Source of the DNA: Cypionkella sp. | GTDB taxonomy: Bacteria > Pseudomonadota > Alphaproteobacteria > Rhodobacterales > Rhodobacteraceae | DNA length: 36,789 nt | NCBI RefSeq assembly: GCF_030652235.1 | Contig: NZ_JAUSBA010000011.1 | Location: 1 to 36,789 of the forward strand | Reading direction: 5' to 3' | Shown here: positions 1,094 to 34,441 of the stretch, piece after piece | Numbering within the stretch: the stretch's first letter is position 1 | How the letters are laid out: every line of letters begins with the position of its first letter | Notes under the pieces: model-generated | Database searches by the model: none | What the model was told of the DNA's origin: nothing | What the model saw: the letters and a program-made list of their open reading frames with translations, nothing else | Made by a program: the position numbers and the translations under genes

Positions 1094-2098
1094 TCACGGT
1101 GCCATGCCGAGCAGACGCAAAACCTCGCGCGGGGCGGGTTTTCTCCAGATGATCTGGAAACTGTCGGCCACATTGTCGCGGGCCACGGGAATTCCGGGCA
1201 AGGCGATCCAGGCAGGAACGGGTCGGCCCAACAAGGCAAGGACCGTGGTGCGGGCGGCGACCTCGCCCTGTTGAAACGGCTGCTGTGCTGCAACACTCAC
1301 AAAAGGTTTGCTTGCGGCCAAGGAAATGGCGACATCTTCGCCAAGATCGACGGTCGCCATCACAATCGAGCGGCCAGCGGCTTCCAGTCGGATGGATACC
1401 GCCGTGGCAGGCGTGTCCCAGACCACAAAGAAACCTGAAATCTCGGGATAATCCGCGATCATCCGCTGGGCCAGATCGGCCGCTGCGTCCACCGCGCCGA
1501 ACCGCAGTACATGCGTTCGCACGTCAGAGCGGTTCGCCTGCATCCAATTGATGAAAGCAACCTCCCGCCCGTTGGTGGCGAAGAAATCAGCGGCAAAGCC
1601 AAGAATGCCCACCGCCGCCCCTTGCGCCAGATGCGGCGAAAGCCCCGCTGCCGCCATCCTGCCAAGACCGAAATTATCCGATGAAACAAGCGAGGTGTAA
1701 TGGGTGCCGGGCAATAGGCCGGTCGGCACATTTTCTAGCAGCACTAGGCGGATGCCCGCCAGCGCAACCCGCCTGAAGGCCGCCACAACCTGTTCGTTTG
1801 CTACAGGCAAGGCCACAATCGCATCCGGTTTTGCCGCGATCAGCCGGTCCAGTTCGGCCACCTGCCGATCCGCTGAAAATCCGCAATCGACCACTTCGGT
1901 CACGACCACTCCACAATCCCCAAAGATGCCCAACATGCCGGAAATCTGCAACTTGGTCCAATCGCCATTCAGCGTGTGCAAAACAACGGCCACCCGCTTG
2001 CCTGCTGCTTTGGCCGCTGCGCAATCCTCTGGCAGAAGGCTTACTCTTTCGGGCGGAGCAGCGCGCTCACCATGGGGGCCCAGTCCAAATATGGTCAA
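1094..2098 (-). CDS. Leaderless RbsB-like sugar-binding protein, coupled to ROK regulator
   Basis: A 334-residue protein with the type-I periplasmic-binding fold used by ribose-type ABC importers. It aligns along nearly its whole length with the binding protein at 4565-5686. Shared landmarks include NDW/GDW-type ligand loops, DNVPAG versus ENVPTG, VSADNYG versus VSSDNFG, AADFF, and ATVDLGEDVAIS versus TTVDLGENVAIS. Unlike that paralogue its N terminus (MTIFGLGPHGERAAPP) has no hydrophobic signal peptide, so it should stay in the cytoplasm. Its start codon overlaps the stop of the upstream ROK gene as ATGA, meaning translational coupling. There is no DNA-binding domain and no membrane segment. 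The inferred role is a soluble sensor of the imported sugar that works with the ROK regulator; a decayed transporter component is the alternative, but the frame is intact. Confidence 0.85.
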   Translation of the reverse strand: MTIFGLGPHGERAAPPERVSLLPEDCAAAKAAGKRVAVVLHTLNGDWTKLQISGMLGIFGDCGVVVTEVVDCGFSADRQVAELDRLIAAKPDAIVALPVANEQVVAAFRRVALAGIRLVLLENVPTGLLPGTHYTSLVSSDNFGLGRMAAAGLSPHLAQGAAVGILGFAADFFATNGREVAFINWMQANRSDVRTHVLRFGAVDAAADLAQRMIADYPEISGFFVVWDTPATAVSIRLEAAGRSIVMATVDLGEDVAISLAASKPFVSVAAQQPFQQGEVAARTTVLALLGRPVPAWIALPGIPVARDNVADSFQIIWRKPAPREVLRLLGMAP

Positions 2099-3468
2099 GA
2101 TCCACTCCTCCCCTGCACTGATGGCGGCGCGGGCTCCGGTTGCGGCACCGCGGCCCCGTCTTCGTCCGCACGGAACGCGGCAAAATCGGGATGCAGGGTC
2201 GGTTTACCTTGAATGATCCAGTCTTTAAGGAAGGCCGGCGCAAAGATCGCCTCAGACGCCACGCGCGCCGCCCCCACTAACCCCGCCGAACTGCCCATCT
2301 GCGAACGGATTATGCGCAGATCGCGCGTGACCAGCGGGTGAGACGCGCCGTAAACCGCCTCACGGATCCCCGCCAGCAGGATGTCATTGGTTTGAACCAG
2401 CGTGCCCGACAGCACGATCATGTCAGGGTTCAGCGCATTGGCCAGCGTCGCCACAACCTGCCCGATCAGATGCCCCGACCTGGTCAGGATCGCCACGGCG
2501 GCGGGATCGCCGATCTGTGCTGCCTGAGACACTTCGATCGAGGTAATATCACCCCCGCGCCGCACTAGGTCGGCCAAAACCGGACTGCGACCGGAGTCGG
2601 CCGCGACACGCCCTTCGCGCTGGATCATGTCAGAGCCTGCCATCGCATCCAGCGTGCCAGTCAGCCCGTCCGAAATTACCGGAAGCGCGCCGATCAGGCC
2701 CGCCGCCCCCTGCGCACCGCGATAGAGCTGCCCGTCACACACGATCCCCGCGCCGATCCGACGTCCGACCTTGATAAATAGCATGGATCGCAGCCCTTGC
2801 CCCGCACCGGCGTGCAACTCTCCCATGGTCATGGTTTCCACGCTGGATCGCATCCAGATCGGCACGTCGAATTGGCGAGTAAGTGTCTCGACCAGCGGAA
2901 AGCCTTCCCAAGCCGGCAGAACGGGGGGGGTCGCCGTCATGAAGGCGCTATCCCCAACCGAGGGCACCGTACCGGGCACCGACAGCGATATGCCCCATGG
3001 TGCAGTGGTTGGGGTCTGACGCTCCAGACACCAATGAAACAAGGCCGCGAGCCGGCTTGCAAGTTCTGCGGCAGGGGCCGTCAGGTCGGCGGCCTCGTGG
3101 TGTTCGGTCAACAGGTTGCCCGACAGGTCTGATACGCCGACGCCGATGGCCGTCTGGTCCAGTGTCGCCACCAGCACCAGGCCGCGCCGGGCAGAAAAGC
3201 GCACAAGGCGCGGGGCTCGCCCGCCGGTGGCCAGCCCTAGTTCCGACTCGTCGACAAGGCCCAGATCCGAAAGCAACTGCAGCCGGTCCGCCACCACGGC
3301 ACGCCCCAACTCGCTTTCGCGCTCCAACGCCTGCCGGGTGGTTGCGCGTTCGCTGCGGATCAGGTTCAGGATTTCAACCAGAGAGGGCCCCGCTGTCTCG
3401 CTGTTGCGCGGACGACCTTTCCCACGTGTGCGGGTAGATTCGGCGGTTTCGGCAGTGTGCGGTAACAA
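2095..3468 (-). CDS. ROK-family transcriptional regulator with degenerate sugar site
   Basis: A repressor-type ROK protein: an N-terminal helix-turn-helix (about residues 31-73, ending in the wing TGGRAPRLVRF) precedes a ROK domain. A TTG start at 3468 is preferred because it is preceded by GAGGAG six bases upstream, and because the in-frame extension to GTG at 3609 runs through AT-rich sequence that looks like promoter. The TTG start gives 457 residues. Key family residues are missing. The ATP loop reads TLDQ instead of DxGxT, and the usual Asn-Asp sugar/catalytic pair is replaced by RSS (in IWMRSSVETM). The ExGH motif reads GAAGLIGALP, and the zinc motif CxCGxxGCxE is absent (GLTGTLDAMAGS). 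It should bind DNA but probably cannot sense a sugar in the usual way. It likely controls the divergent importer operon. Confidence 0.88.
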   Translation of the reverse strand: MLPHTAETAESTRTRGKGRPRNSETAGPSLVEILNLIRSERATTRQALERESELGRAVVADRLQLLSDLGLVDESELGLATGGRAPRLVRFSARRGLVLVATLDQTAIGVGVSDLSGNLLTEHHEAADLTAPAAELASRLAALFHWCLERQTPTTAPWGISLSVPGTVPSVGDSAFMTATPPVLPAWEGFPLVETLTRQFDVPIWMRSSVETMTMGELHAGAGQGLRSMLFIKVGRRIGAGIVCDGQLYRGAQGAAGLIGALPVISDGLTGTLDAMAGSDMIQREGRVAADSGRSPVLADLVRRGGDITSIEVSQAAQIGDPAAVAILTRSGHLIGQVVATLANALNPDMIVLSGTLVQTNDILLAGIREAVYGASHPLVTRDLRIIRSQMGSSAGLVGAARVASEAIFAPAFLKDWIIQGKPTLHPDFAAFRADEDGAAVPQPEPAPPSVQGRSGS

Positions 3469-3510: not shown

Positions 3511-3554
3511 ATTTTGGCGTTCAAGAAAATACTTTTGCGTTAAAACAGCAAAAG
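3511..3554. promoter_or_regulatory. Candidate operator: two AT-rich inverted repeats
   Basis: The AT-rich divergent intergenic region holds ATTTT (3511-3515) with AAAAT (3526-3530), then CTTTTGC (3532-3538) with GCAAAAG (3548-3554; 9-nt spacer). AT-rich palindromes are typical for ROK repressors such as NagC and Mlc, so this is a plausible ROK binding site between regulator and importer operon. This is inference only. Confidence 0.4.
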
Positions 3555-3689: not shown

Positions 3690-4511
3690 ATGGCAGCGTG
3701 GAAGCTGGCGTATCACGCCAATTGCTGGGGAGAGCTTGGCGGAAACGCCGTGGGGGTCACCTCGATCACCGAACTCAGCTATCGGACCTTTGGGGCGATG
3801 GACCGCGCTTTTGCCGATATCGCGGCGGCTGGCTATGAAGGCGTCGAGCTGTTTGACGGCAACCTGCTGGATCACAGTGCTTCGGCGATGCGAACCCTTT
3901 TGGCCGACAACGGGCTTGCACTGGTTGCCGCCTATGCCGGTGGGAACTTCATCTTCGACGACATCCTGCCCGAGGAACTGGCCCGCGTGACCCGCGCCGC
4001 CGACCGTGCCGCCGAACTGGGTGCGCCGCATCTGGTGGTGGGCGGTGGCGCCAAACGCTTCGACGGAATACGCGAGACGGACTATCACAAGCTGGGCGCG
4101 GCGCTGGACCGGATCAAGGCGATTGCCGATGCCCGGGACCTGCGCGCACATTACCACCCGCATCTTTCCACCATTGTCGAGGGTCCGGCCGAGGTCGCCA
4201 AGATCTTCGATTTGACGACCATCGATTTTTGCCCCGACACGGCCCATTTGGCTGCTGCTGGCGGCGATCCTGCGCAACTGATCCGGGATCACGCGAAGCG
4301 TATCTCGTATGTGCATCTGAAAGGGTTTCAGAAAGAGCCTTTCGCCTTCACCCCGCTGGACAGGGGCGACGTGCCCACAGACCCCATTCTTCAGGCGATG
4401 AAAGACGTGGGATTTGCCGGTTGGGTTTGCACCGAACTTGACAGCTGGACCGACCCTGCCGAAGGGGCGCGGATCAGCATGGACTATCTGAACCGGGCCA
4501 TGGCGGGCTAA
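3690..4511 (+). CDS. IolE-like TIM-barrel sugar dehydratase/isomerase
   Basis: A 273-residue member of the AP-endonuclease-2/xylose-isomerase-like TIM-barrel superfamily, soluble and cytoplasmic. The N terminus LAYHANCWGE resembles inosose dehydratase (IolE) and relatives. The motif YHPHLSTIVEG (155-165) is close to the IolE-type metal and substrate loop, with Glu164 a likely metal ligand. Asp183 and His186 in CPDTAHL, His209 in VHLKG and Glu249 in CTELD complete the site. Enzymes with this loop remove water or a leaving group from keto-cyclitols and keto-sugars, so an elimination or isomerisation on a 3-keto sugar made by the neighbouring Gfo/Idh enzyme fits. It is the first gene of the operon, 53 bases before the binding-protein gene. 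The exact substrate is not readable from sequence. Confidence 0.82.
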   Translation: MAAWKLAYHANCWGELGGNAVGVTSITELSYRTFGAMDRAFADIAAAGYEGVELFDGNLLDHSASAMRTLLADNGLALVAAYAGGNFIFDDILPEELARVTRAADRAAELGAPHLVVGGGAKRFDGIRETDYHKLGAALDRIKAIADARDLRAHYHPHLSTIVEGPAEVAKIFDLTTIDFCPDTAHLAAAGGDPAQLIRDHAKRISYVHLKGFQKEPFAFTPLDRGDVPTDPILQAMKDVGFAGWVCTELDSWTDPAEGARISMDYLNRAMAG

Positions 4512-4564: not shown

Positions 4565-5686
4565 ATGATTACCAGACGTGCCCTTATGGGCTCGGCCACC
4601 GCACTTGCGCTGGTCATGGGGATGAACGTCCCCGCCTTTGCCGACCCTGACACTGCGCTGGCTGCATTGCAGGAAACCGTACTGTCGAAAGGCCCGAATG
4701 GCGAAGACCCCTCGGCTCCTTCCACCGTCGTTCTGACCGACGAGGAACTGGCCAAGATCAAAGAGATGGGCGCCACCGCCGCAATCGTCATGCACTACGG
4801 TGGCAATGACTGGTCCCGCGCCCAGATCAACGGGCTGCAGACTCAGTTCACCGCCATGGGCATTGAGGTGATTGCCGTGACCGATGCGGGATTCAAACCC
4901 GAAAAGCAGGTCAGCGATCTTGAAACCATCATGGCGCAGGCGCCTGACGTCATCGTATCGATCCCCACGGATCCCACCGCGACCGCCGCCGCCTACCGGG
5001 CTGCAGGCGAAGCGGGAGCGAAGTTCGTATTCATGGATAACGTGCCCGCAGGCTTTGTTGCGGGCAAGGATTACGTCTCGGTTGTCTCTGCGGACAACTA
5101 TGGCAACGGCGTCGCCTCGGCACATCTGATGGCAAAAGCCCTGGGGCCGGATGGGGGGGATATCGGTCTGGTCTTTCATGCCGCTGATTTCTTCGTGACC
5201 AAGCAGCGCTATGATGCTTTTAAAGCCACCATTGCCAACGATTATCCGAACATCAAGATCGTGGACGAACAGGGCATCGGCGGACCAGATTTTTCAGGCG
5301 ATGCGGAAAAAGCTGCGGGAGCAATGCTGACGGCCAATCCGTCAATCAAGGGGATCTGGGCAGTTTGGGACGTGCCCGCCGAGGGGGTGATTGCCGCCGC
5401 GCGCGCCGCTGGTCGCGATGATTTGATCATCACCACGGTGGACCTTGGCGAAAACGTTGCGATCAGCATGGCGCAGGGCGGCTTCATCAAGGGCTTGGGC
5501 GCGCAGCGTCCGTATGATGCGGGCGTGGTCGAGGCCAAGCTCGCCGGCTATGCGCTGCTGGGCAAAGAGGCCCCGGCGTTCGTGGCCCTGCCCGCGCTTC
5601 CCGTCAGCAAAGAAAATTTGCTGGAGGCATGGACACAAGTCTATTCCACAGAAGCGACCGACAACATCAAGGCCATGATGCAGTGA
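4565..5686 (+). CDS. RbsB-type periplasmic sugar-binding protein
   Basis: A 373-residue substrate-binding protein of a ribose/galactose-type ABC importer. Residues 1-26 form a signal peptide ending in PAFA. It starts with MITRRALMGS, so a twin-arginine route is possible. The mature part is a type-I periplasmic-binding fold with the ligand-loop features GGNDWSRAQ, FMDNVPAG, SADNYG and TTVDLGENVA. A strong ribosome site GGGAGGA sits before the ATG. It delivers its sugar to the permease and ATPase encoded at 6953-9488. It is the exported counterpart of the leaderless protein at 1094-2098. A stable hairpin follows the stop codon and probably protects this message so that it is made in excess over the membrane parts. 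Confidence 0.92.
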   Translation: MITRRALMGSATALALVMGMNVPAFADPDTALAALQETVLSKGPNGEDPSAPSTVVLTDEELAKIKEMGATAAIVMHYGGNDWSRAQINGLQTQFTAMGIEVIAVTDAGFKPEKQVSDLETIMAQAPDVIVSIPTDPTATAAAYRAAGEAGAKFVFMDNVPAGFVAGKDYVSVVSADNYGNGVASAHLMAKALGPDGGDIGLVFHAADFFVTKQRYDAFKATIANDYPNIKIVDEQGIGGPDFSGDAEKAAGAMLTANPSIKGIWAVWDVPAEGVIAAARAAGRDDLIITTVDLGENVAISMAQGGFIKGLGAQRPYDAGVVEAKLAGYALLGKEAPAFVALPALPVSKENLLEAWTQVYSTEATDNIKAMMQ

Positions 5687-5789: not shown

Positions 5790-6956
5790 ATGACCAAAGT
5801 GATGAATGTCGCCATGATCGGCGGCGGGTTCATGGGCAAGGCGCATGCCATGGCCTATGCCTCGATGCCGATGTTCTTCTGGCCCGCCCCAGCCATTCCG
5901 CACCGCAAGGTCGTGGTTGATATCACAGACGGGGCAGCCGAAGATGCCCGCCAACGGTTCGGTTTTGACGAGGCCAGCAGCGACTGGCGTTCCGTGGTAA
6001 ATCGTCCGGACATCGACGTAGTTGATATTTGCACCCCCAACAACGTCCATGCCGAAATTGCCATCGCCGCCGCAAAAGCGGGCAAGCACATTATTTGCGA
6101 AAAACCCCTCGCGCGCACGGTGGACGAGGCCCGCGCGATGACCGAGGCGGCGAAGGCCGCCGGCATCATCCACATGGTCGCCTTCAACTATCGCCGCACG
6201 CCCGCCGTGGCGCTGGCCAAGAAATTCATCGACGAAGGCCGCATCGGCAAAATCCTGAACTTCCGCGGCACCTATCTGCAGGACTGGTCAGCCGATGAGA
6301 ACGGCCCGCTATCCTGGCGGTTCCAGAAGAAGATTGCTGGCTCTGGCGCAGTTGGTGATATCGCTACGCATGTGGTCGATCTGGCGCATTATCTGGTGGG
6401 CCCCATTGCAGAGGTGATCGCGATGACAAAGACCTATGTGACAACCCGGCCGCTGCAGCAGGGCGGCGTGGACAAGCTGGGGGCGTCGGTGAAATCTGCG
6501 GGTGTCGAGCGCGCGCCGGTGGATGTGGATGACGAGGTGATCTCGATGCTGCGATTTGGCAACGGCGCTATCGGAAGCCTTGAGGCTACCCGCAACGCCT
6601 GGGGCCGCAACAACTTCATCACGCTGGAAATTCACGGCACCAAAGGGTCGATCCATTTCAACTATGAACGCCGCGACGAATTGCAAGTGATGTTCGCCGA
6701 CGATCCGGCAGATGCGCGCGGCTTCCGCACCATCTACACGGGTCCGGCGCATCCATATGGCGGCGGCCTGTGGCCGATCCCGGGTCTGGGCATCGGCTAT
6801 TCCGAGACGAAGATCGTGGAATGCTTTGACTTCTTCAGCGCCATAGCGTCGGGCAAGCAGCCGAGCCCGAATTTCGAAGACGGCTTGCTGACCGAACTGG
6901 TGGCCGACGCAATGCTGCGTTCGGGCGAAACCGGCAAGTGGGAAACGGTCGGATGA
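5790..6956 (+). CDS. Gfo/Idh/MocA dehydrogenase, levoglucosan-dehydrogenase-like
   Basis: A 388-residue NAD(P)-dependent sugar dehydrogenase. The Rossmann motif is IGGGFMGKAHA (10-20). The EKP motif (104-106) supplies the catalytic lysine, and GDIATHVVDLAHY (189-201) supplies the Asp190 and His194 pair. The stretch MPMFFWPAP near residue 27 and AFNYRRTPAVALAK near 131 match, from memory, the levoglucosan dehydrogenase (LgdA) subfamily, which oxidises the 3-hydroxyl of 1,6-anhydroglucose. That assignment is a strong resemblance, not a verified alignment. The stop overlaps the start of the importer ATPase gene by ATGA, so the enzyme is co-translated with its importer. A different 3-keto-forming sugar or cyclitol dehydrogenase is the main alternative. 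Confidence 0.85.
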   Translation: MTKVMNVAMIGGGFMGKAHAMAYASMPMFFWPAPAIPHRKVVVDITDGAAEDARQRFGFDEASSDWRSVVNRPDIDVVDICTPNNVHAEIAIAAAKAGKHIICEKPLARTVDEARAMTEAAKAAGIIHMVAFNYRRTPAVALAKKFIDEGRIGKILNFRGTYLQDWSADENGPLSWRFQKKIAGSGAVGDIATHVVDLAHYLVGPIAEVIAMTKTYVTTRPLQQGGVDKLGASVKSAGVERAPVDVDDEVISMLRFGNGAIGSLEATRNAWGRNNFITLEIHGTKGSIHFNYERRDELQVMFADDPADARGFRTIYTGPAHPYGGGLWPIPGLGIGYSETKIVECFDFFSAIASGKQPSPNFEDGLLTELVADAMLRSGETGKWETVG

Positions 6957-8542
6957 CCGCCCCGGCCCGTATAACCAATCCCGCTGTTCCGGCCGTTCGC
7001 ATGATGGGGATTTCGAAATCCTTCGGCGGTGTGCGTGCGTTGGACAACGTGGATTTGGAGGTGCTGCCCGGCGAGGTTCATGCGCTGCTGGGCGGCAACG
7101 GGGCCGGGAAGTCCACCATTCTAAAGGTGCTGAACGGGGTGCACATCCCGGATGAAGGCACGGTCGAGGTGGCAGGCCAAAGGCTTGCCGCCCCGACACC
7201 AGAGGCCGCCCGCGCGGCTGGGGTGGCGATGAACTTTCAGGAAATGTCGCTGATCCCTACGTTGACCGTGGCGCAGAATGTGTTTTTGACGCGCGAGGCC
7301 CGCGATGCGCGCGGCCTGATCGACGACGAAGATTCCATCCGCCGCGCCGCCGCGATCTTCAAGATGCTGGAGGTCGAGGTGAACCCCCACGCCTTGGTGG
7401 GTGATCTTGGTGCTGGGCAAAAGCAGTTGACGGAGATTGCCAAGGCCATCAGTCAGGACGCGCGCGTGCTGATCCTGGACGAACCTTCGACCGCGCTTGC
7501 GGTATCAGATGTGGAGCGATTGTTCGTCTTTTTGCGCAAGCTGACTGCCAAGGGCGTGGCGATCATCTATGTCAGCCACCGTATGGACGAGATTGCCCGG
7601 ATCGCCGACCGCGCCACCATCCTGCGCGATGGGCGGCATGTGATCACAGCGCCGATGGCGGACCTGCCCATCGATACGATGATCGAACATATCGTCGGCA
7701 AACGGTCCAAGGGATTGGCCGACGTGGTGCGCGGCGGTTCCTCACGGGGCGAGGCGCTGCTGGAGCTGAAAGATGTGACCGGGCCGCACAAGCCCGATAA
7801 CATCAGCTTTACCCTGCACCGGGGCGAAGTGCTGGGGCTTGCGGGGCTGCTTGGGTCGGGCCGGTCGGCGCTGGCGCGGGTGATCGCGGGGATCGAGCCT
7901 GCGGTGTCGGGTGAAATACATATCAAGGGCAAACCGGTGCAGATCCGCAGCCCCTCCGATGCGATTGCGCAAGGTGTCGCCCTCGTGCCCGAAGCCCGAG
8001 CCACGCAAGGCATCATCCCCGCCCATAGCGTTGCCGAAAACATGGTCATGGCGGTTCTTGGACGGATCACGAAACGCGGTCTGGTGGATCAGCCGCGCGC
8101 GACCGCAATCACCGACAGCATGATCCAGCGCCTTTCGGTCAAGACCGCCAACCGCGACAATGCGGTATCGACCCTGTCAGGCGGCAACCAGCAAAAAGTG
8201 GTGATCGGCAAATGGCTGGCCACCGACCCCGATATTTTGATCCTTGATGAACCCACCGCAGGCATCGACATCGGATCGAAATCCGAAATCATCCGGCTGG
8301 TGCGCGATCTTGCGGCGGCAGGCAAAGGGGTCTTGGTGATCTCATCCGAACTCTCGGAACTGCTCACTGCCTGCGACCGTATTCTGGTAATGGCCGATGG
8401 CCGCGCCCATCAGATGCTGGACCGCGCCGATCTGGACGATCCCGACGAGACCAACCCCGACCATGCCCTGCAAGCTGCCGAGCGGCGCTTGCAGATCGAG
8501 ATTCAGAAAGCTCTGACCGTGAAGGAGGCTCTCCATGGCTAA
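6953..8542 (+). CDS. RbsA/MglA-type sugar ABC importer ATPase
   Basis: A 529-residue double-ABC ATPase of ribose-type importers, acting on the cytoplasmic face of the membrane. The first domain has Walker A GGNGAGKST (47-55) and Walker B ILDEPSTAL. Its signature region is reduced to GAGQKQLTEIA. The second domain has the usual degenerate Walker A (LLGSGRSAL), the signature LSGGNQQKVV and Walker B ILDEPTAGID. The ATG at 6953 overlapping the previous stop is preferred to the in-frame GTG at 6938. It powers uptake together with the permease, whose gene it overlaps by 8 bases, and the binding protein at 4565-5686. Confidence 0.93.
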   Translation: MTAPARITNPAVPAVRMMGISKSFGGVRALDNVDLEVLPGEVHALLGGNGAGKSTILKVLNGVHIPDEGTVEVAGQRLAAPTPEAARAAGVAMNFQEMSLIPTLTVAQNVFLTREARDARGLIDDEDSIRRAAAIFKMLEVEVNPHALVGDLGAGQKQLTEIAKAISQDARVLILDEPSTALAVSDVERLFVFLRKLTAKGVAIIYVSHRMDEIARIADRATILRDGRHVITAPMADLPIDTMIEHIVGKRSKGLADVVRGGSSRGEALLELKDVTGPHKPDNISFTLHRGEVLGLAGLLGSGRSALARVIAGIEPAVSGEIHIKGKPVQIRSPSDAIAQGVALVPEARATQGIIPAHSVAENMVMAVLGRITKRGLVDQPRATAITDSMIQRLSVKTANRDNAVSTLSGGNQQKVVIGKWLATDPDILILDEPTAGIDIGSKSEIIRLVRDLAAAGKGVLVISSELSELLTACDRILVMADGRAHQMLDRADLDDPDETNPDHALQAAERRLQIEIQKALTVKEALHG

Positions 8543-9488
8543 TTCAGTAACGGCCCCTCGCGGGGCAATCTTCGCCAACTGGCGGCAGAACATCATCTAC
8601 ATCGGCTTTGTCGCGATCTTTCTGATCTTCGCGCTGACGCTAAACGACAAGGGGTTCCTTAATCCCAACAACCTGCTGAACATCGTGCGGCAGACGGCGA
8701 TGATTGCCGTGATGGCCATCGCGATGACCTTCGTTCTGTCAGCGGGCGAGATCGACCTGTCGGTGGGGGCCGTGGCCGGATTGGCGACCGTGACGGTTGC
8801 CATGGCGATCAATTTTGCGGGCCCTGTGGGCGGGGTCGCTGCCGGTATTGCGACCGGCCTTGCTGTCGGCATGTTCAACGGATGGCTGACCACGCGCATC
8901 GGCATTCCGTCATTTCTGACAACGCTTGCGATGATGGGCATCGCCAAGGGCGTGGCGATGTGGATTTCCGACACCGCTGCCGTGCCAATCCTTTCGCCGG
9001 GCTATTCCTGGCTGTTTGGCGGCGGGTCTGTTGGGCCGATCCCGGTGCTGTTGTTCTGGATTGCGGCACTGGGTGGAGTGGGGCATATCGTGCTGCGCCG
9101 CTCAGGCTTTGGCCGCCGGGTGTTGGCGACCGGTGGCGGGGAAACCGCTGCGCGCTATTCCGGCATCGATACTGCAAACATCAAGATGAAGGTGCTGGTC
9201 CTGTCGTCCTGTGCTGCCGCACTGGCCGGCATGCTTTACGCCGGACGACTGCAATCGGGCCGCTTTCAGTTGGGCGAAGGCGACGAGTTGTCCGTCATCG
9301 CGGCTGCGGTGCTGGGCGGCACCAGCCTGTTCGGCGGCAAGGGCACTGTGATCGGCACCATCGTGGGTGCCATGATGATCGGGCTGATCAACAACGGCCT
9401 GATCTTGTTCGGGCTGGAATTCAGCCAGCAGTTGATTGCGCGGGGGGGGATCATAATCCTTGCCGTCGCCCTTAGCCAAAAGCGGTGA
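8535..9488 (+). CDS. RbsC-type sugar ABC importer permease
   Basis: A 317-residue inner-membrane permease of the ribose/galactose importer family. Several hydrophobic segments start near residue 22 (IIYIGFVAIFLIFAL). Family landmarks are GEIDLSVGAVAGL, the GFGRRVLATGGGETAARYSGI cytoplasmic loop that contacts the ATPase, and AAVLGGTSLFGGKGT. The length is usual for the family. A GGAGG ribosome site lies inside the end of the upstream ATPase gene. One membrane protein gene suggests a homodimer, as in RbsC. The next gene starts two bases after its stop. Confidence 0.92.
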   Translation: MANSVTAPRGAIFANWRQNIIYIGFVAIFLIFALTLNDKGFLNPNNLLNIVRQTAMIAVMAIAMTFVLSAGEIDLSVGAVAGLATVTVAMAINFAGPVGGVAAGIATGLAVGMFNGWLTTRIGIPSFLTTLAMMGIAKGVAMWISDTAAVPILSPGYSWLFGGGSVGPIPVLLFWIAALGGVGHIVLRRSGFGRRVLATGGGETAARYSGIDTANIKMKVLVLSSCAAALAGMLYAGRLQSGRFQLGEGDELSVIAAAVLGGTSLFGGKGTVIGTIVGAMMIGLINNGLILFGLEFSQQLIARGGIIILAVALSQKR

Positions 9489-9489
9489 C

Positions 9490-9804
9490 ATGATGGAACA
9501 TGTCACCATCATCGGCACCGTCAAAGCAACGCCCGCGACACGCGACGAGCTTCTTGCACTCCTCGCGGCACAGGTTGCCCCGACCCGAAATGAGCCCGGC
9601 TGCATCAACTATGACTTCCATGTCGATGCGGCCGATCCCTGCTGCTTTGTCTTTTATGAGAACTGGCAGAGCCAAGCAGATCTGGACGCGCACTTGGCGA
9701 TGCCACACCTCGCGCCGTTGTTTTCTCAGCTCGGGCGGCTTTTGGCCGAGCCGGTTGATATTCGGTATCTGACGATGCTTTCGGATATGGCCTCACAGAA
9801 ATGA
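9490..9804 (+). CDS. Small ABM-fold protein (monooxygenase/mutarotase-like)
   Basis: A 104-residue protein of the antibiotic-biosynthesis-monooxygenase family (dimeric alpha-beta barrel; YgiN-like). Landmarks are ATRDELLALLAAQ, the turn NEPGCINYDFH, FVFYENWQSQADLDAHLAMPH, and a C-terminal strand. The start at 9490 or 9493 is chosen because it lies directly behind the permease stop; the frame extends further upstream only inside the permease gene. Proteins of this fold include quinol oxidases, but the related barrel of sugar mutarotases (RhaM, UxuM) also occurs in sugar operons. A role in anomer conversion or in handling a reactive keto intermediate is therefore possible. No catalytic residue decides between these. 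Confidence 0.8.
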   Translation: MMEHVTIIGTVKATPATRDELLALLAAQVAPTRNEPGCINYDFHVDAADPCCFVFYENWQSQADLDAHLAMPHLAPLFSQLGRLLAEPVDIRYLTMLSDMASQK

Positions 9805-9877: not shown

Positions 9878-9937
9878 CCTTGTTCAGGGGCCACAGTCAG
9901 AACATGCGGTAGTATGTGGATCGCGGGAGAGCTCTTA

Positions 9938-11062
9938 ATGTCCCTGAAACTCGGCATGGTGGGTGGTGGCAAAGGTGCCTTCATCGGCGGCGTGCATCGG
10001 ATTGCGGCGCGGCTGGACGGCCATTGGAACTTGGTCGCCGGGGCGTTTTCGTCTGACCCTGAACGGGCGGCGCAATCGGCGGCGGACCTGGGGATTGTGG
10101 CAGAGCGCAGCTACGACAGCTTTGCCGCGATGGCCAAAGCCGAGGCGGCGCGGCCAGACGGCATCGATGCCGTGGCAATCGTTACGCCCAATCACCTGCA
10201 TGTCCCGGTGGCTATGGCGTTTCTACGAGCTGGAATTCCTGTGATCTGCGACAAGCCGCTTGCCACAACCGTGGAAGACGCCGAGGCGCTGGTCAAGTTG
10301 GTGGCCGAGACCGGCCTGCCCTTTATCCTGACCCAGACATACACCGGCTATCCGATGGTCCGCGAGGCACGGGCCCTGGTTGCGGCGGGTAAGATCGGTC
10401 GCGTCCGTCATGTTCAGGTTGAGTATTTGCAGGACTGGCTGGCCATGCCGGTCGAAAGCTCGGGTAACAAGCAGGCTGCATGGCGCACCGACCCGGCGCA
10501 GTCCGGCCCCGGCGGGTGCATCGCCGATATCGGCACCCATGCCTTCAACCTTGCAACTTTCGTGACCGGTCTTGTTCCAAGTGCAGTGCTGGCCGATCTG
10601 ACTGCTTTCGGACCGGACCGGGCACTTGATGACAATGCCGCAATCCTGCTCAGGTTCGGGGGTGGTGCCAAGGGCATGATCTGGACGAGCCAGGTTGCGC
10701 CGGGAGTCAAGAACGGCCTTCGCATTCGCGTGGCTGGCGCGGCCGGAGGCCTTCTTTGGGATCAGGAACGACCCGACGATCTTGAGTTCACTCCTGTTGG
10801 CAAGCCAACGCGAACCCTGCGGCGTGGGGGCGACGGCGTTTTTACACCTTCTCGCCTTCCGGCAGGCCACCCAGAAGGCTATCTTGAGGCCTTTGCCACG
10901 CTTTATGCCGAAGCCGCCGGGCAAGTGCGTGAGTTTCGGAGCGGGGCAAAACCGAGCATCGATATCGCGCTGCCGACTGTGTCGGACGGATTGGCTGGCA
11001 TGCGTTTCATCACGGCTGCGGTGCGGTCAAGCGAAGAAGACGGGATTTGGGTTGGGCTCTGA
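9938..11062 (+). CDS. Gfo/Idh/MocA oxidoreductase, second enzyme of cluster 1
   Basis: A 374-residue NAD(P)-dependent oxidoreductase. The Rossmann motif is MVGGGKGAFIGGVHR (7-21). DKP (105-107) replaces the more common EKP and keeps the lysine, and GGCIADIGTHAFNLA (192-206) carries Asp197 and His201. It shares the YLQDW motif with the dehydrogenase at 5790-6956, which hints that both handle related substrates. The ATG at 9938 is chosen because GGGAGAG precedes it. In oxidation-elimination-hydration-reduction routes a second Gfo/Idh enzyme reduces the 3-keto sugar back, and that role would fit here as an inference. It lies 133 bases after the ABM gene and is probably the last gene of the operon. 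Confidence 0.85.
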   Translation: MSLKLGMVGGGKGAFIGGVHRIAARLDGHWNLVAGAFSSDPERAAQSAADLGIVAERSYDSFAAMAKAEAARPDGIDAVAIVTPNHLHVPVAMAFLRAGIPVICDKPLATTVEDAEALVKLVAETGLPFILTQTYTGYPMVREARALVAAGKIGRVRHVQVEYLQDWLAMPVESSGNKQAAWRTDPAQSGPGGCIADIGTHAFNLATFVTGLVPSAVLADLTAFGPDRALDDNAAILLRFGGGAKGMIWTSQVAPGVKNGLRIRVAGAAGGLLWDQERPDDLEFTPVGKPTRTLRRGGDGVFTPSRLPAGHPEGYLEAFATLYAEAAGQVREFRSGAKPSIDIALPTVSDGLAGMRFITAAVRSSEEDGIWVGL

Positions 11063-11614: not shown

Positions 11615-12619
11615 TCATGCTGCCATCTCCCGAGGCGGTGCTCGTGATTGCGGCTTTTGCCCTCTGAGGAAGATTTCGATGATCCTCATCGGGCCACCGC
11701 AACATGGGCATGGCGCGCGCCGTGTGAGCGGGGTGGGTTCTGCCGCCGGTTCGGGTGCAGCGGCGGGGGCTGCCTCTGCGAGCAGGTTGCGGACCCGCGC
11801 GATGTTGACTTTGCGGGCGGCGCTGGCAAGCAGGCCGTAGTGCCGGATGCGGTGGAATCCATCCGGCAGGACATGAATCAGAAAGCGGCGGATGAACTCA
11901 TCGGTGGTCAGCCGCATGACCTTTTGGCAATCGCCGGTCTTGATGCGATGGTCCTTCCAGCGGAACGCGACCGTGTCGGCGTCGGCGCTAACCACGCGGG
12001 TGTTCGAGATCGCCACACGGTGGGTGTAACGGCTAAGATAGGCCAGAACCGCCTCGGGGCCGCCGAACGGAGGCTTGGCATAGACCACCCATTCCGACTT
12101 GCGGAACGGGGCCAGCCAGGCGGTAAATGTGCTCGCATCGGCCAATCCAGATCGGTCACCGAAGAAGATCAGGTGTCCGGCGTGGTGGAGGGCGAGCAGG
12201 CCTTCGAGGAACATGCGGCGAAAGAGCCGCGACAGGACCTGCACGGGCAGGAAGAACCCCCGTCGACAGGCGATCCAGCGGCCGCCATCTGGCGAGAGGC
12301 CACCGCTCGGGACGATCATGTGAATGTGGGGATGGTGGGTCAGGGCCGAACCCCAGCTGTGCAGCACCGCCGTAATCCCGACCTTTGCACCGAGCTGTTT
12401 GGGATCGGCGGCGATGGTCAATACCGTCTCGGCCCAAGCGCGGAACAGCAAGTCATAGACCGCCTTCTTGTTCCAATAGGCGATCTGCGCAATCTCGGCC
12501 GGCAGGGTGAAGACGACGTGGAAGTATTCGACCGGCAACAGGTCCTCAGCCCGCACAGCCAGGGGTTTGGTTCGCATCCTTTCTCTCCTTTTGATTTGCG
12601 ATGCCACGAGAGCATACAT
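11615..12619 (-). pseudogene. IS91-family transposase, N-terminally damaged
   Basis: A 334-residue open frame with the core of an IS91 Y2 transposase, a HUH-type rolling-circle enzyme. It contains LLPVEYFHVVFTLP, the metal-binding HHPHIHMIVPSGG block, and the paired tyrosines in AYLSRYTHR spaced Y-x3-Y as in IS91. A C-terminal CPCCGGPM zinc-type knuckle is also present. The N-terminal zinc-finger part that normally precedes (CxxxHCPKC) is not in frame: a TAA stop lies at about 12644-12646, and the upstream sequence shows only decayed traces up to about 12780. The copy is therefore probably inactive or works without its zinc finger. It abuts the IS3 remnant on its right. Confidence 0.8.
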
Positions 12620-24523: not shown

Positions 24524-25534
24524 TCAGGCGGCGACGACTCGGCCCGAGGCATTGAAGAGATGATAGTGCTGCGCCTTGGGTGATACCGACAAGGTTGTGC
24601 CGGCTGCGACCTGTGCCGTGCCTGGCAGGCGAACGGTCATCAATTCTTCTTCCCCGATATCGAGATACGTGAAGCTGTCGGCACCTAGGCTTTCAGAGTG
24701 GACGGCGATGCCGGTCCAAGCCCCGCCGCCACCGCCGACGATCTCTAGGTGTTCGGGCCGGACGCCCACATAATGCGCGGGGAAAGCCGCAGCCTTGGCA
24801 CCAGTTAGGATGTTCATCTGCGGCGAGCCGATGAATTGCGCCACGAACAGCGAATGCGGCGCGTTGTAAAGATCCATCGGTCTGCCGACCTGCTGCACCT
24901 CGCCGTCCTTCAGGACGACGATGCGGTCGGCCATGGTCATGGCCTCGACCTGATCATGGGTGACGTAGATCATCGTCGTGTCGGGGAGTGACTCGCCAAG
25001 GCGCGAGATTTCGATCCGCATCTTCAGGCGCAGCGCCGCGTCGAGGTTCGAGAGCGGCTCATCGAACAGGAACACCTTCGGATTCCGCACAATCGCCCGC
25101 CCGATGGCGACGCGCTGGCGTTGGCCGCCCGACAGATCCTTGGGCTTTCGCGCGAGGTAGGGTGATAGATGGAGTGTCTCGGCGGCTGCGGCCACGGCGG
25201 CCTCGCGCTCGGCCCTCGGCATCTTGGCGATGCGCAGGGCGTAGGCCATGTTCTGTGCCACCGTCATGTGCGGATAAAGCGCGTAAGTTTGAAAGACCAT
25301 GGCGATGCCCCGCTCTGACGGCGGCGTGTCGTTCACCACCCGCCCATCAATGGCGATGGTCCCGGAGGTGACGGTCTCCAGCCCGGCGATGGACCGTAGC
25401 AGTGTTGACTTGCCGCAGCCCGAGGGCCCGACGAAGACGACGAACTCGCCGGATTTGATGTCCAGGTCGATGCCCTTGAGCACGTCCACAGACCCGAAGC
25501 TCTTGCGCAGGTTGGTGATTTTAATGTCGGACAT
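24524..25534 (-). CDS. UgpC/MalK-type sugar ABC importer ATPase
   Basis: A 336-residue ATPase of carbohydrate importers with a single ABC domain. Landmarks are Walker A VGPSGCGKST, Q-loop MVFQTYALYPHM, signature LSGGQRQRVAIGRA, Walker B VFLFDEPLSNLD and the H-loop VTHDQVEAMT. A C-terminal regulatory OB/TOBE-type domain includes YVGVRPEHLEI. It is somewhat shorter than MalK (about 370). It is the last gene of the minus-strand operon and dimerises beneath the MalF/MalG-type permeases at 26632-28304. The gap to the preceding dehydrogenase gene is 40 bases. Confidence 0.93.
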   Translation of the reverse strand: MSDIKITNLRKSFGSVDVLKGIDLDIKSGEFVVFVGPSGCGKSTLLRSIAGLETVTSGTIAIDGRVVNDTPPSERGIAMVFQTYALYPHMTVAQNMAYALRIAKMPRAEREAAVAAAAETLHLSPYLARKPKDLSGGQRQRVAIGRAIVRNPKVFLFDEPLSNLDAALRLKMRIEISRLGESLPDTTMIYVTHDQVEAMTMADRIVVLKDGEVQQVGRPMDLYNAPHSLFVAQFIGSPQMNILTGAKAAAFPAHYVGVRPEHLEIVGGGGGAWTGIAVHSESLGADSFTYLDIGEEELMTVRLPGTAQVAAGTTLSVSPKAQHYHLFNASGRVVAA

Positions 25535-25574
25535 CAGGGCTCCTTGGTGCTGGATGGGGGCGGGCTCGGGCGGA

Positions 25575-26606
25575 TCAGCGCACGAACACTGCCTTCTCGG
25601 TCTCGCGGGCGTCGAACATGCGGAAGGCGGTCTCGGCCTCCTCCAGCGCGAAGGTGTGGGTGGCCAGCCGCTCCAGATCGATGCGGTGCGTCTGGATCAG
25701 GTGAAGGATGTCGGCGTATTCGTCGATGCCGAAGTACCAGGACCCGAAGATGGTTACCTGTTTGCGGATCAGCTGTTCACTTGGCTTGATCGTGGTCGTG
25801 GCGGCCTCGCCCACCAGCGCCAGCTTCCCCATCGGGGCCAGAGCATCAAGTGCCATGTTGTGGGCGACGCTTTGGCCGGAGCAGTCAATGGCGCCCGTCA
25901 GCCCCTCGCCGCCGGAGAACTCCCTGATCTGGTCAGCCGCCGTAGGGGTGCTGGGGTCAAGCGCGAGGTCGGCCCCGAGCGATAGCGCAAAGGCCCGCCG
26001 TTCCTCGATGGGATCAAGTGCCACAACCCGACCACCCATCGCCTTGGCGGCGAGAATGCCGGCGGTCCCCATCGGCCCCATGCCCCAGATGCCAATGCGC
26101 GACAGCCCGTTCACCCCAAGCTTGCGCGAGGCCGAAAACAGCGTGCCAAATGCGTCCGTCGAGATCGCGGCCGCAAGGTGCGACATGCCCTTGGGGCTTT
26201 TCAGCAGATTGCGGGCCGGAACCTTGAGGAACTCGGCGTTGCCACCATCCATGGTGAAGCCCAGGCACTTCCACTTGGCGCAGAGATAGAAATGCCCCGT
26301 GCGGCAGTGGTGGCAGACGCCGCAGCCAACGCCCAGATACACCGCCACGTTGTCGCCTTCCACGAACTCGGTCACCGCTTCGCCGACCTGAACCACGATG
26401 CCCGCAGGCTCGTGGCCGCAGACGAACTGGTTCGAGTCGCCGCCTGAAATTACAGCGTTGCCATAGTAAAGGCTAAGATCGCTGCGGCAGATGCAAGAGG
26501 CCTTGATCTCGACCAGAACTTCGTCAGGGCCGATGCTGGGTACGGGCACGGCGCGAATTTCGACCTGCTTGTTGCCCGGCAGGAAGACGGCGGTCATCTT
26601 GGGCAT
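25575..26606 (-). CDS. Zinc-dependent medium-chain alcohol/polyol dehydrogenase
   Basis: A 343-residue medium-chain dehydrogenase of the sorbitol/threonine dehydrogenase type, cytoplasmic and NAD(P)-dependent. The catalytic zinc ligands are in CICRSDL (Cys38/Cys40) and GHEPAG (His65-Glu66). The structural zinc loop has Cys95, 98, 101 and 109 (GCGVCHHCRTGHFYLC). The Rossmann motif is IWGMGPMGTAG near residue 173. It stands between the permease and ATPase genes of the importer, so it most likely oxidises the imported polyol or sugar, or reduces a keto-sugar made by the epimerase at 29801-30625. The specific substrate is not evident. Confidence 0.88.
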   Translation of the reverse strand: MPKMTAVFLPGNKQVEIRAVPVPSIGPDEVLVEIKASCICRSDLSLYYGNAVISGGDSNQFVCGHEPAGIVVQVGEAVTEFVEGDNVAVYLGVGCGVCHHCRTGHFYLCAKWKCLGFTMDGGNAEFLKVPARNLLKSPKGMSHLAAAISTDAFGTLFSASRKLGVNGLSRIGIWGMGPMGTAGILAAKAMGGRVVALDPIEERRAFALSLGADLALDPSTPTAADQIREFSGGEGLTGAIDCSGQSVAHNMALDALAPMGKLALVGEAATTTIKPSEQLIRKQVTIFGSWYFGIDEYADILHLIQTHRIDLERLATHTFALEEAETAFRMFDARETEKAVFVR

Positions 26607-26631
26607 TGTAGGGCTCCTTGGTTAAAGGGGG

Positions 26632-27450
26632 TCACTTGACGGCTCCGGCCGAAAGGCCGCGCACGAACGAGCGCTGCATGGCCAGAAACAGCACAACGAG
26701 CGGGGCGAAGGCGATAAGTCCGGCAGCGGCGATCCCGCCATAGTCAACGCCGTAGCGTCCCTGCAGGCTCGCGGCGCCGACCGTGATGGTCTTGAGCGTC
26801 TCGGTCTGCAGCACAACCAGCGGCAGAAGATACTCTTGCCACGAAAACAGGAAAACGATGAGCGTAAGCGACATCAGGCCCGGCCGGGCCAGCGGCACCA
26901 CCACCGTCAAAAAGCCGTAGAGCGGCGTTGCGCCGTCCATTGTGGAGGCCTCAATCAGCTCGTCAGGCACTTCCTGCATCACGGTCCGCATCATGAAGAC
27001 CGCAAAGGGCATCAGCAGCGCGGCTTGGGGGAGGATCACGCCGAGATGGGTATCGATCAGCCCCATCGCCTGGAGATTTCCGTAGAGGGCAACGATGACT
27101 GACGGGGCGGGCACCACGAGCCCTGCGAGAAACAGCGCGAACAGCGCCTCGCGGCCGCGGAACTGCATCTTGGCGAAGGCGTAACCGGCCAGCGGCGCGG
27201 TCAGCAGCACCAGGATCGTCACCGCGGCCGATATCTTCAGCGAGTTCCAGAAGAAGGTCGAGAACCCGCTTTCGGTCCAGACGCGCACATAGTTTGCCGT
27301 CTCGATCGGCCAGGGCAGGCTGAGGGGCCCGTCGAACAGGTCGGACTCGCTGCGCATCGACGCCAGCAGCACGAGGTAGACCGGCGCCAGTGCGTAGAGG
27401 GCGAACAGTGCCAGGATGATCGTCTGGGAATGCTTGGTGATGCGGTTCAT
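26632..27450 (-). CDS. MalG-type carbohydrate ABC permease
   Basis: A 272-residue inner-membrane permease of the CUT1 importer family. The first membrane segment is IILALFALYALAPVYLVLLASM. The typical coupling loop EASTMDGATPLYGFLTVVVPLARPG contacts the ATPase. The ATG at 27450 overlaps the stop of the MalF-type gene as ATGA; the long upstream open stretch is a shadow of that gene. It forms a heterodimer with the MalF-type protein and works with the binding protein at 28453-29739. Confidence 0.93.
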   Translation of the reverse strand: MNRITKHSQTIILALFALYALAPVYLVLLASMRSESDLFDGPLSLPWPIETANYVRVWTESGFSTFFWNSLKISAAVTILVLLTAPLAGYAFAKMQFRGREALFALFLAGLVVPAPSVIVALYGNLQAMGLIDTHLGVILPQAALLMPFAVFMMRTVMQEVPDELIEASTMDGATPLYGFLTVVVPLARPGLMSLTLIVFLFSWQEYLLPLVVLQTETLKTITVGAASLQGRYGVDYGGIAAAGLIAFAPLVVLFLAMQRSFVRGLSAGAVK

Positions 27451-28304
27451 TTGGCCCTCAGCAGTCGGAAGGCAATCGCGCTGAGGCTCAGCACGATGAC
27501 CAGAAGGACGACAGACAAGACGGCGGCGTAGCCGAAATCGCCCACTAGGAAGAAGGTTTTGTAGACATGGGTGGTCAGCACTTCGGTGGCGTAGCCGGGG
27601 CCGCCTTGGGTGGTGACCCAGATCAGGTCGAAAAAGCGCATCGCCTCGATGGCGGCGTAGAGGCCGAGGAAAAGCGTGGAGTTGTTGAGGAGCGGCACGG
27701 TGATGTCGCGGAACTTCCGCCACCAGGGCGCGCCGTCAACCTCAGCCGCCTCATAAAGCGAGGGGTCGATGGACTGGATGGCGCCAAGGTAGATCACAAC
27801 GCAGAAGCCGAAGAACGTCCAGGCGCCGACCACGTTGAGCGACACCAGCGCCGTGCTCTCTTCGGCAAGCCAGGCACCGGCGAGGCTGCCGAGCCCCATC
27901 ATGTCGAGCCCGTAGTTGAGAAGTCCGAACAGCGGGTTATAGATCCAGCCCCAGATGATCCCGGCGACCACCAGCGGAATGGTGCGCGGGATGAAGTAGA
28001 TGGCGCTCATCACCTGGATGGTGCGCGGGCTTCGGTCGGCCAGAATCGCGGCAAGCAGCAGGCCCGCCAGCAGCGGAAAGGCCAGCGTCAGCACGACCCA
28101 GATGGCGTTGTGGCTGAGTGCCGCCCAGAAAACTGAGTCCGATCCCAGATGCGTATAGTTGGCCAGGCCGACGAACTCCTGCGCGATGCCATTGTCCCAA
28201 GAGAAAAACGAGTAGGCTACCACCTGCAAGATCGGCACGACCACGAAGGCCGCATAAAGCAGCAACGCCGGCAGAAGGAAGAGTATAGCAGGGCGCGAGG
28301 TCAT
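27447..28304 (-). CDS. MalF-type carbohydrate ABC permease
   Basis: A 285-residue inner-membrane permease of the CUT1 family. It starts with the hydrophobic segment ILFLLPALLLYAAFVVVPILQ and has the coupling loop EAAEVDGAPWWRKFRDITVPLL. The ATG at 28304 follows GGAAGG. The in-frame extension upstream is proline/arginine-rich, encoded by the G-rich repeat region, and is not part of the protein. It is separated from the binding-protein gene by 148 bases with a repeat block and a strong hairpin, so its expression is probably lower than that of the binding protein. Confidence 0.93.
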   Translation of the reverse strand: MTSRPAILFLLPALLLYAAFVVVPILQVVAYSFFSWDNGIAQEFVGLANYTHLGSDSVFWAALSHNAIWVVLTLAFPLLAGLLLAAILADRSPRTIQVMSAIYFIPRTIPLVVAGIIWGWIYNPLFGLLNYGLDMMGLGSLAGAWLAEESTALVSLNVVGAWTFFGFCVVIYLGAIQSIDPSLYEAAEVDGAPWWRKFRDITVPLLNNSTLFLGLYAAIEAMRFFDLIWVTTQGGPGYATEVLTTHVYKTFFLVGDFGYAAVLSVVLLVIVLSLSAIAFRLLRAK

Positions 28305-28330
28305 CGCAGGGCAACCTTCCAGATGAGCTA

Positions 28331-28418
28331 GGCGGGATGGATTGGCGGGGCGGGCAGGATAGACAGGCGAAATGGACGGGCAGGATGGACGGGCGAGGCG
28401 GGCGGAGTGGACAGGCGG
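28331..28418. repeat. G-rich degenerate tandem repeat block
   Basis: Irregular repeats built from GGCGGG, GGATGGAC and GGACAGGCGGGG-type units, about 13 to 22 bases each, fill most of the intercistronic gap between the binding-protein and MalF genes. The minus-strand transcript is C-rich here. Several GGG or GGGG runs on the plus strand could allow G-quadruplex formation in DNA. Confidence 0.65.
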
Positions 28419-28443
28419 GGCGGGCCGCACGGGGCGGCCCGCC
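28419..28443 (-). other. Intercistronic hairpin behind binding-protein gene
   Basis: GGCGGGCCG (28419-28427) and CGGCCCGCC (28435-28443) form a perfect all-GC 9-bp stem 9 bases after the binding-protein stop (minus strand). There is no T tract. It likely protects the upstream message or causes partial termination, lowering permease expression, as the hairpin at 5694-5716 may do in cluster 1. Confidence 0.7.
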
Positions 28444-28452
28444 TGATGTGGC

Positions 28453-30767: not shown

Positions 30768-30810
30768 TGTCCAATCTGGACATTGTATGGGTGGGCGTCC
30801 AAAACGGACA
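30768..30810. promoter_or_regulatory. Twin operator palindromes of cluster 3
   Basis: Two 15-base palindromes lie 28 bases apart centre to centre: TGTCCAATCTGGACA (30768-30782) and CGTCCAAAACGGACA (30796-30810). They share the pattern GTCCA-N4-GGACA. Between them the minus strand has TACAAT (30787-30782), a good -10 for the epimerase operon. They are the best candidates for binding sites of the divergent HTH-SBP regulator; the -35 is not clear. Confidence 0.65.
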
Positions 30811-30903
30811 TATGGACCGGGGCCCCTGCTTTCGGGTAGGACAAAAGCACCAAGCCGGTCGGACAGGCCGGGTCCCGTCGCCAAAGGTGTAAAGGGCGCC
30901 ACG

Positions 30904-34216: not shown

Positions 34217-34441
34217 GGGCGATCCTGCGCGATGATCGTGGTTGACCCCTACTGTGGGGATCATCTGGGAACAGTCAACGAACACATTGAAATTGCGCAA
34301 TAAAAGGAAAATCTGCGTAGGCATTGGGGCGGCTGAACTTGCTGGGAAGGACGCAATACCGGTCTTGGTGTCGAATCAGTGTCGGCGTTTCGCTCGCCTC
34401 TGACCGCTGCTAAGGTGGCTCAAAATTGATACGGATTTCCA

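Follow-up and report, generated by a model that had tools for sequence, protein, structure and literature searches.

A ROK-type regulator without its sugar site, encoded next to a leaderless sugar-binding protein: a possible two-protein levoglucosan sensor

Textbooks treat ROK repressors and periplasmic binding proteins as families with different roles. Typical ROK repressors act at a palindromic operator beside a sugar operon, and some proteins of this fold answer to a partner: Mlc is controlled by sequestration via the glucose phosphotransferase system (PTS), its partner EIIB(Glc) belonging to the regulator's own sugar uptake route, and MecR2 is a ROK-like protein that works via a protein partner, itself a repressor, rather than via a sugar. 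In the LacI family, a DNA-binding module is governed by an intracellular sugar-binding protein (SBP) fold, which recognises the sugar, and XylFII-LytS and ChvE-VirA are systems in which an SBP works with a sensor kinase. Here we analyse the entire contig NZ_JAUSBA010000011.1 of Cypionkella sp. (36,789 bases; hereafter, the window), the left part of which is occupied by a levoglucosan catabolic cluster. On the minus strand, divergently from the transport and catabolic genes of the cluster on the plus strand, lies an operon of two genes encoding a ROK-type regulator with a degenerate ROK domain and SBP2, a leaderless RbsB-type SBP (Table 1). We think it probable that the two proteins form a cytoplasmic levoglucosan sensor with SBP2 as the ligand-sensing subunit, a reading favoured by the conserved pairing, the missing signal peptide, the conserved pocket of SBP2, the loss of motifs from ROK, the conserved operator and the co-variation of evolutionary rates.

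With NagC, Mlc, XylR and Lmo0178, the window regulator shares the fold and a palindromic operator beside a sugar operon, but regulators of its type have no sugar site, have lost the zinc cysteines in 86 of 88 loci and have a constant SBP partner. The Mlc-EIIB(Glc) complex (PDB 3bp8) likewise is a ROK regulator bound by another protein; there, however, the partner is a PTS domain, whereas here it would be a leaderless binding protein of the ATP-binding cassette (ABC) type. MecR2 (PDB 4ija) is among the fold matches of our ROK model, but its pathway is unrelated and its partner is not a sugar-binding protein. LacI joins a helix-turn-helix (HTH) and an SBP fold in one chain, whereas the present system divides these roles between two genes, with a ROK protein as the part that binds DNA. 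CuaD, a binding protein with a sensing role that exists in addition to the one serving the transporter, binds CuaS and reports cellobiose (PMC10384115); SBPs of the CuaD-CuaSR type address a membrane kinase from outside the cytoplasm, whereas the target of SBP2 would be a repressor within the cytoplasm. The SBP scaffold has also been recruited to two-component regulation, chemotaxis and stress protection, with no repressor partner of this kind named in the accessible part of that account (PMC8938411). Among the matches listed from the open-licence literature, in the parts available, none describes a ROK regulator that works together with a binding protein in the cytoplasm, in agreement with the original prediction, which knew of no described system of this kind. 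We propose that the novelty lies in the splitting of a repressor's SBP-fold sugar sensing into two chains, with a ROK protein as the partner. If correct, this would represent a new route by which a regulator acquires or swaps specificity, would explain a class of ROK proteins devoid of the known sugar-binding residues and might yield a ligand-swappable part for biosensors of levoglucosan, a sugar formed when biomass burns; the handover is directly testable, given the graded series of relatives described below.

The levoglucosan cluster of Bacillus smithii comprises genes for levoglucosan dehydrogenase (LGDH), isomerase-like protein(s), an ABC importer, one binding protein and a LacI regulator, according to the accessible part of the report (PMC7676230). 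The Klebsiella (L139) and Arthrobacter (L140) clusters resemble that of the window in LGDH, isomerase-like protein(s) and the ABC importer with its binding protein, but show no SBP2 and carry a LacI regulator and a ROK protein with an intact site, respectively. Shinella sumterensis MEC087, the source of one of our loci (L073), is a reported levoglucosan degrader, and the available part of the same study places ROK, LacI and other regulators as well as binding proteins near lgdA, without linking them to one another (PMC10066097).

Conservation of the pair in other genomes had been set as a test of the original prediction. When a collection in which each species is represented by a single genome was scanned with only the ROK alignment as the query (SBP2 was not part of it), the SBP2 gene was found directly downstream of the ROK gene in all 80 loci, which represent the best 80 of 100 confirmed relatives and bear titles mostly of Rhodobacterales and Rhizobiales. 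Searches at the order, class and plasmid levels agree with this result. SBP2 (at least 51% identity) occurs in 5 of 292 genomes of the order, in all five of which ROK, SBP1 (the exported binding protein of the importer) and LGDH genes adjoin; among 385 genomes of the class, the top three ROK matches, including that of the window, are paired with SBP2 and the next two (L160 and L161) are unpaired; and SBP2 is present in all nine plasmid records whose LGDH is 80% or more identical. In the five whose LGDH is 65-72% identical (Deinococcus, two Klebsiella, Metabacillus and Arthrobacter; gene clusters inspected for four of them), SBP1-like proteins were seen but no SBP2. The ROK and SBP2 genes share a strand in all 90 rows compared, 84 of which also contain LGDH; of the six others, five end within the cluster and the sixth is the Mesorhizobium locus L138. 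Removal of L022 and L024, which derive from the same contigs as L052 and L066, leaves 88 loci, to which the counts below refer; many of these are close relatives rather than independent cases, and L168, a second copy of the L159 type, lies outside the set. Throughout the 88 loci, ROK and SBP2 are separate genes, unlike in the one-chain LacI. The maintenance of the pair, the motif loss and the operator over these loci suggests more than chance.

The ROK gene likely starts at the TTG codon at 3468, preceded by AGAGGAG, within an open frame that extends to 3609. The AlphaFold2 model of its product (mean predicted local distance difference test score, pLDDT, 86.3) is best matched in Foldseek by 5f7q, the ROK repressor Lmo0178 on its operator, with 1z6r (Mlc) and 1z05 also among the matches. 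The model has helices at residues 26-68, and the sequence aligns with Lmo0178 from residue 32 and with Mlc from residue 43, so as to match the N-terminal helices to HTH regions of ROK repressors; the N-terminus has no Pfam HTH match. The family is characterised by four signature motifs, namely, DxGxT, a catalytic Asp, ExGH and CxCGxxGCx(E/D), as given in the part of the source available (PMC5458393), and the window protein has none of them. Aligned to intact relatives, it reads VATLDQTAIG, with no DxG, carries RSSVE in place of the expected NDxN and GLIGAL in place of GDIGHI, and has lost the zinc cysteines. The predicted absence of the Asn-Asp pair, ExGH and the zinc cysteines is thereby borne out, and is not peculiar to the window: the Asn-Asp pair is absent from all 88 paired ROKs (SS or similar instead), as is ExGH, with GH retained in three (L138, L158 and L159), and the zinc cysteines are retained in two (L138 and L159). 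The missing DxG, also predicted, is real but nothing special, because several intact ROKs without SBP2 also have none, and loss of the zinc motif alone is already known for other ROK proteins (PMC5458393, accessible part). Since both occur elsewhere, neither loss was used as evidence on its own.

Ten chosen ROKs without SBP2, comprising seven of the plasmid matches (near-copies skipped), two from class genomes and one distant ROK (L027), present a different picture: the Asn-Asp pair, D/E-x-G-H/Y and the zinc cysteines are each retained in nine. The most telling of these comparisons is the Arthrobacter agilis levoglucosan cluster (L140), which encodes its own LGDH and an intact ROK (NDAN, DIGH, CRCGKRGC) but no SBP2. 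In the ROK tree, the paired ROKs form one clade (100/99), and the first branch inside it comprises L138 and L159/L168, which retain the zinc cysteines and GH; these loci are likewise deep in the SBP2 trees. Judging from the alignments and trees, the relatives form a graded series, from an intact site without SBP2, through a site partly lost with SBP2, to a site fully lost with SBP2. To this extent, namely, the retention of Asn-Asp in nine of the ten unpaired ROKs and the merely partial loss in the deepest paired ones, the predicted move of sensing to a separate binding protein is supported.

The AlphaFold2 model of SBP2 (mean pLDDT 95.0) best matches ribose-binding proteins in Foldseek, with 7e7m at the top (template modelling score 0.73 by query and 0.85 by target length). 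Five residues, R178, W227, D228, D251 and Q272, are invariant in all 88 SBP2 proteins, and the same columns are invariant in 83 SBP1 proteins; they correspond to what we take to be the RbsB pocket residues R141, N190, D191, D215 and Q235. H41, N123, D141 and F172 also are invariant in both sets, and position 47 is W in 84 of the 88 SBP2. The profile match, the model and the invariant residues together indicate a two-lobed SBP fold with a conserved ligand cleft, the ligand of which may be levoglucosan or a close intermediate. SBP2 is, as predicted, a paralogue of SBP1 (35% identity), but its derivation from the transporter's own binding protein found no support. SBP2 forms one clade (100/98, 100/99) outside the SBP1 lineage, and we reject an origin from the SBP1 of the window; the phylogenies do not suggest that SBP2 was recently copied from SBP1, the exact sister of SBP2 being unsure in these midpoint-rooted trees with some long-branched rows. 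Among exported proteins, the nearest relatives found are binding proteins other than SBP1, of which two belong to the levoglucosan cluster of genome G1024 (locus L168) and one to Agrobacterium rubi. For instance, the protein encoded at 11164-12327 of L168 is 44% identical to the SBP2 of L159 and has a visible signal peptide. L168 is an LGDH cluster with two permeases and two leader-bearing binding proteins, one of which, present also on L169 (genome G920), is the closest exported SBP2 relative found.

The original prediction had pointed to 3511-3554 as a candidate binding site, and a conserved palindrome, our predicted operator at 3532-3554, indeed lies inside this region. At least 11 of its 14 arm bases are present upstream of ROK in 85 of the 88 loci, compared to 20 of 1760 shuffled upstream sequences; of the three loci below this threshold, two have no upstream sequence and the third, L159, has 9 of 14. 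When up to three mismatches are allowed, the palindrome is the only such site found in the window.

Given a ROK protein without the usual sugar-reading residues and a constant intracellular sugar-binding partner, we propose that SBP2 acts on ROK and provides its main input. ROK, having lost its own sugar site, would serve as a scaffold and bind DNA at the palindrome, from which it would most likely repress both operons. The cleft of SBP2 would bind imported levoglucosan or an early intermediate (e.g. 3-keto-levoglucosan) and close; ligand-bound SBP2 would then contact ROK, and ROK would leave the DNA, leading to derepression of the divergent transport-catabolic operon and of the ROK-SBP2 operon itself. 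We incline, if only slightly, to the broader view that this is a trans-acting counterpart of LacI, in which one alphaproteobacterial ROK lineage handed sugar recognition over to a leaderless SBP, the ROK domain being left as a mere adaptor that reads whether the cytoplasmic SBP is open or closed.

Evolutionary rates were compared by partial correlation of distances for seven genes (21 pairs) in the 72 of the 88 loci that contain all seven. The value for ROK and SBP2, 0.78 (0.58-0.83 in half-samples), is the highest of the 21 pairs; others include isomerase-permease (0.57), ABC-permease (0.365), ROK-SBP1 (0.05), ROK-isomerase (0.04), SBP2-LGDH (-0.14) and ROK-permease (-0.27). This correlation is no proof of contact, because adjacent genes travel together and the isomerase and the permease reach their value without a known contact; yet the divergent isomerase gene also adjoins ROK, and its correlation with ROK is close to nil.

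Besides this caveat, several points weigh against a sensor composed of ROK and SBP2. The clefts of SBP2 and SBP1 differ at position 45 (S/G versus N) and position 48 (A/T/S versus mostly S), so that the ligand may not be the same. The ROK of L153, on a plasmid of Agrobacterium CFBP6625, reads TSDN and NIGH with intact zinc cysteines and has no SBP2; in the ROK tree, its long branch attaches beside the paired clade. A site degenerate without SBP2 suggests that decay of the site may predate the arrival of SBP2, and this part of the evidence speaks against the predicted move of sensing. As the paired ROKs form one clade, the gain of SBP2 and the loss of the site amount essentially to one event of single origin. 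Furthermore, L159 has no clear copy of the palindrome. Finally, the residues that replace the ROK sugar site are themselves conserved among the paired ROKs (RSSVETMTMGE), and a rebuilt pocket of ROK could still accommodate an effector. As a side observation, the binding protein adjoining ROK in L153 shows a visible signal peptide.

The last of these points leads to the alternative that survives best, under which SBP2 serves the catabolic enzymes in the cytoplasm as a reservoir, chaperone or delivery protein for the sugar and is merely co-transcribed with ROK, whereas ROK itself senses something via a remodelled pocket or is controlled by another protein. The model shows an intact ROK fold, and conservation of the altered residues is what a new pocket would entail. 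We nevertheless consider this alternative unlikely: SBP2 sits with ROK rather than with the enzymes in 80 of 80 loci (best 80 of 100), its rate tracks that of ROK (0.78) and not that of the dehydrogenase (-0.14), and the five plasmid records with LGDH of 65-72% identity show no SBP2. Distinctly less probable is a sequestration of ROK, similar to that of Mlc, at the importer or another membrane protein, with SBP2 modulating the importer from inside. The solved complex of Mlc with EIIB (3bp8) provides a precedent, but the rate correlation of ROK with the permease is slightly negative (-0.27), whereas that with SBP2 is strongly positive. Moreover, many positions fixed in SBP1 vary in SBP2, as expected without permease docking, which argues against docking of SBP2 to this permease; the comparison is a weak one, SBP1 being more conserved overall.

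A further alternative is that SBP2 is exported, owing to a wrongly assigned start or an unusual signal, and is a second binding protein of the importer, in line with its membership of the same family as SBP1 and with the longer frames that in some loci run back over ROK. In the window, SBP2 starts with TTG at 2098, behind AGGAG at 2105-2109, and the frame further upstream contains no ATG, GTG or TTG; this start matches residue 38 of SBP1, just past the SBP1 leader. The bases shared with the ROK stop are TTGA rather than the predicted ATGA, but overlaps of four bases with ATG starts are found in many relatives. In most loci, the start nearest to the conserved GLGPHGE lies four codons before the motif; with starts so chosen, the two genes overlap by four bases in 40 of the 90 rows, and a gap of 9-16 bases separates them in 34 of the remaining 50. 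We combined the start analysis with a crude measure, the hydrophobicity of the most hydrophobic N-terminal stretch of eight residues, the median of which is 1.11 in the 88 SBP2 compared to 2.55 (minimum 2.12) in 83 SBP1 from the same loci. All but two SBP2 (86 of 88) are less hydrophobic than any SBP1 leader, and the two exceptions, L103 and L104 (2.51), rely on a start far inside ROK and both also offer a start with the four-base overlap. The absence of a signal peptide, for which a check of export had been asked, hence extends across the 88 loci by start and hydrophobicity, and we reject export as very improbable.

Median ratios of nonsynonymous to synonymous substitution rates (dN/dS) in 12 close pairs are 0.086 for SBP2, 0.0855 for ROK, 0.0485 for SBP1 and 0.032 for LGDH; several pairs have dS near or above 1, which makes their ratios rough. 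SBP2 is under purifying selection; its frame is open and can be aligned over 85% or more of the length in all 88 loci, as is that of ROK in 86, the other two reaching the contig end. Decay of the pair into a dying repressor and a pseudogenised binding protein, to which the motif loss in ROK might point, is rejected as practically negligible in view of the purifying selection across genera (median dN/dS of about 0.086 in both genes), the open frames and the conserved operator.

Two loci show the pair in other settings. On the plasmid of Mesorhizobium sp. 131-2-5 (L138, 181-9969), ROK and a leaderless SBP2 are encoded beside a cluster that includes genes for a GMC oxidoreductase and a member of the gluconate 2-dehydrogenase subunit 3 family. 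In the fetched stretch, at the edge of which a Gfo/Idh/MocA gene is cut, no levoglucosan dehydrogenase was recognised. This suggests that the pair possibly serves another sugar here and that the module can be re-targeted. Ochrobactrum CP061776 (L175, outside the 88 loci), a plasmid typed as conjugative, encodes SBP2 together with only a C-terminal stretch of ROK (20% of the query); the only other cluster gene recognised in its annotation is a Gfo/Idh/MocA oxidoreductase, and the locus is a relic of the cluster from which most genes are missing.

From the match to the LGDH model, the pathway encoded by the window cluster, to which the original prediction gave no name, is levoglucosan catabolism. 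A search for the LGDH family in 398 genomes of the phylum yielded two matches above the cut-off, in the window's own genome and in one other (G018). By its size and place, and in the light of the levoglucosan papers, we read the first gene of the divergent operon as LgdB1-like. The frame of the ABM-domain protein opens inside the permease gene, so its true start may be later. Transposon and phage genes flank the clusters of the window, namely, a Mutator-family transposase (3-683), a Y2 transposase (11615-12619) and a phage-type integrase (33062-34324), suggesting a mobile neighbourhood.

Table 1. Features of the levoglucosan cluster and the adjoining ROK-SBP2 operon in the window
Feature	Position	Strand	Basis
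SBP2, leaderless RbsB-type sugar-binding protein	1094..2098	-	Peripla_BP_4, 72.9 bits
ROK-type regulator, degenerate ROK domain	2095..3468	-	PF00480, 109.7 bits (cut-off 22.9)
Predicted operator CTTTTGC-n9-GCAAAAG	3532..3554		between the divergent ROK-SBP2 and catabolic operons
Xylose-isomerase-like TIM barrel, first gene of the divergent operon	3690..4511	+	profile matches
SBP1, exported RbsB-type sugar-binding protein of the importer, SBP2 paralogue	4565..5686	+	profile, alignment, leader
Levoglucosan dehydrogenase (LgdA/LGDH)	5790..6956	+	NF052479, 716.1 bits (NCBI model cut-off 650)
Sugar ABC importer ATPase	6938..8542	+	profile matches
Sugar ABC importer permease	8535..9488	+	profile matches
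ABM-domain (monooxygenase-like) protein of the cluster	9460..9804	+	profile match
Second Gfo/Idh/MocA dehydrogenase of the cluster	9914..11062	+	profile matches

Elsewhere in the window, a 631-residue protein (30787-32682, plus strand) combines in one chain a winged-HTH-like stretch (MarR_2, 26.1 bits, slightly below the cut-off of 27) and an ABC-type SBP_bac_1 domain (74.8 bits); a signal peptide is not evident. This fusion may be viewed as an in-cis counterpart of the idea advanced here for ROK and SBP2. It is encoded near a second ABC importer (24524-29739, minus strand), comprising a TOBE-domain ATPase, two permeases and an SBP_bac_8-type binding protein, which is perhaps its target. The fusion matches 112 plasmid records, in 31 of which the match covers 80% or more of the fusion, and the annotated matches among the 30 rows listed are called extracellular solute-binding protein or similar. 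Relatives of the fusion also occur near LGDH on two plasmids, at 91292-93025 of Agrobacterium CP039918 (~5 kb away) and at 1153059-1154861 of Shinella CP132303 (~3 kb away).

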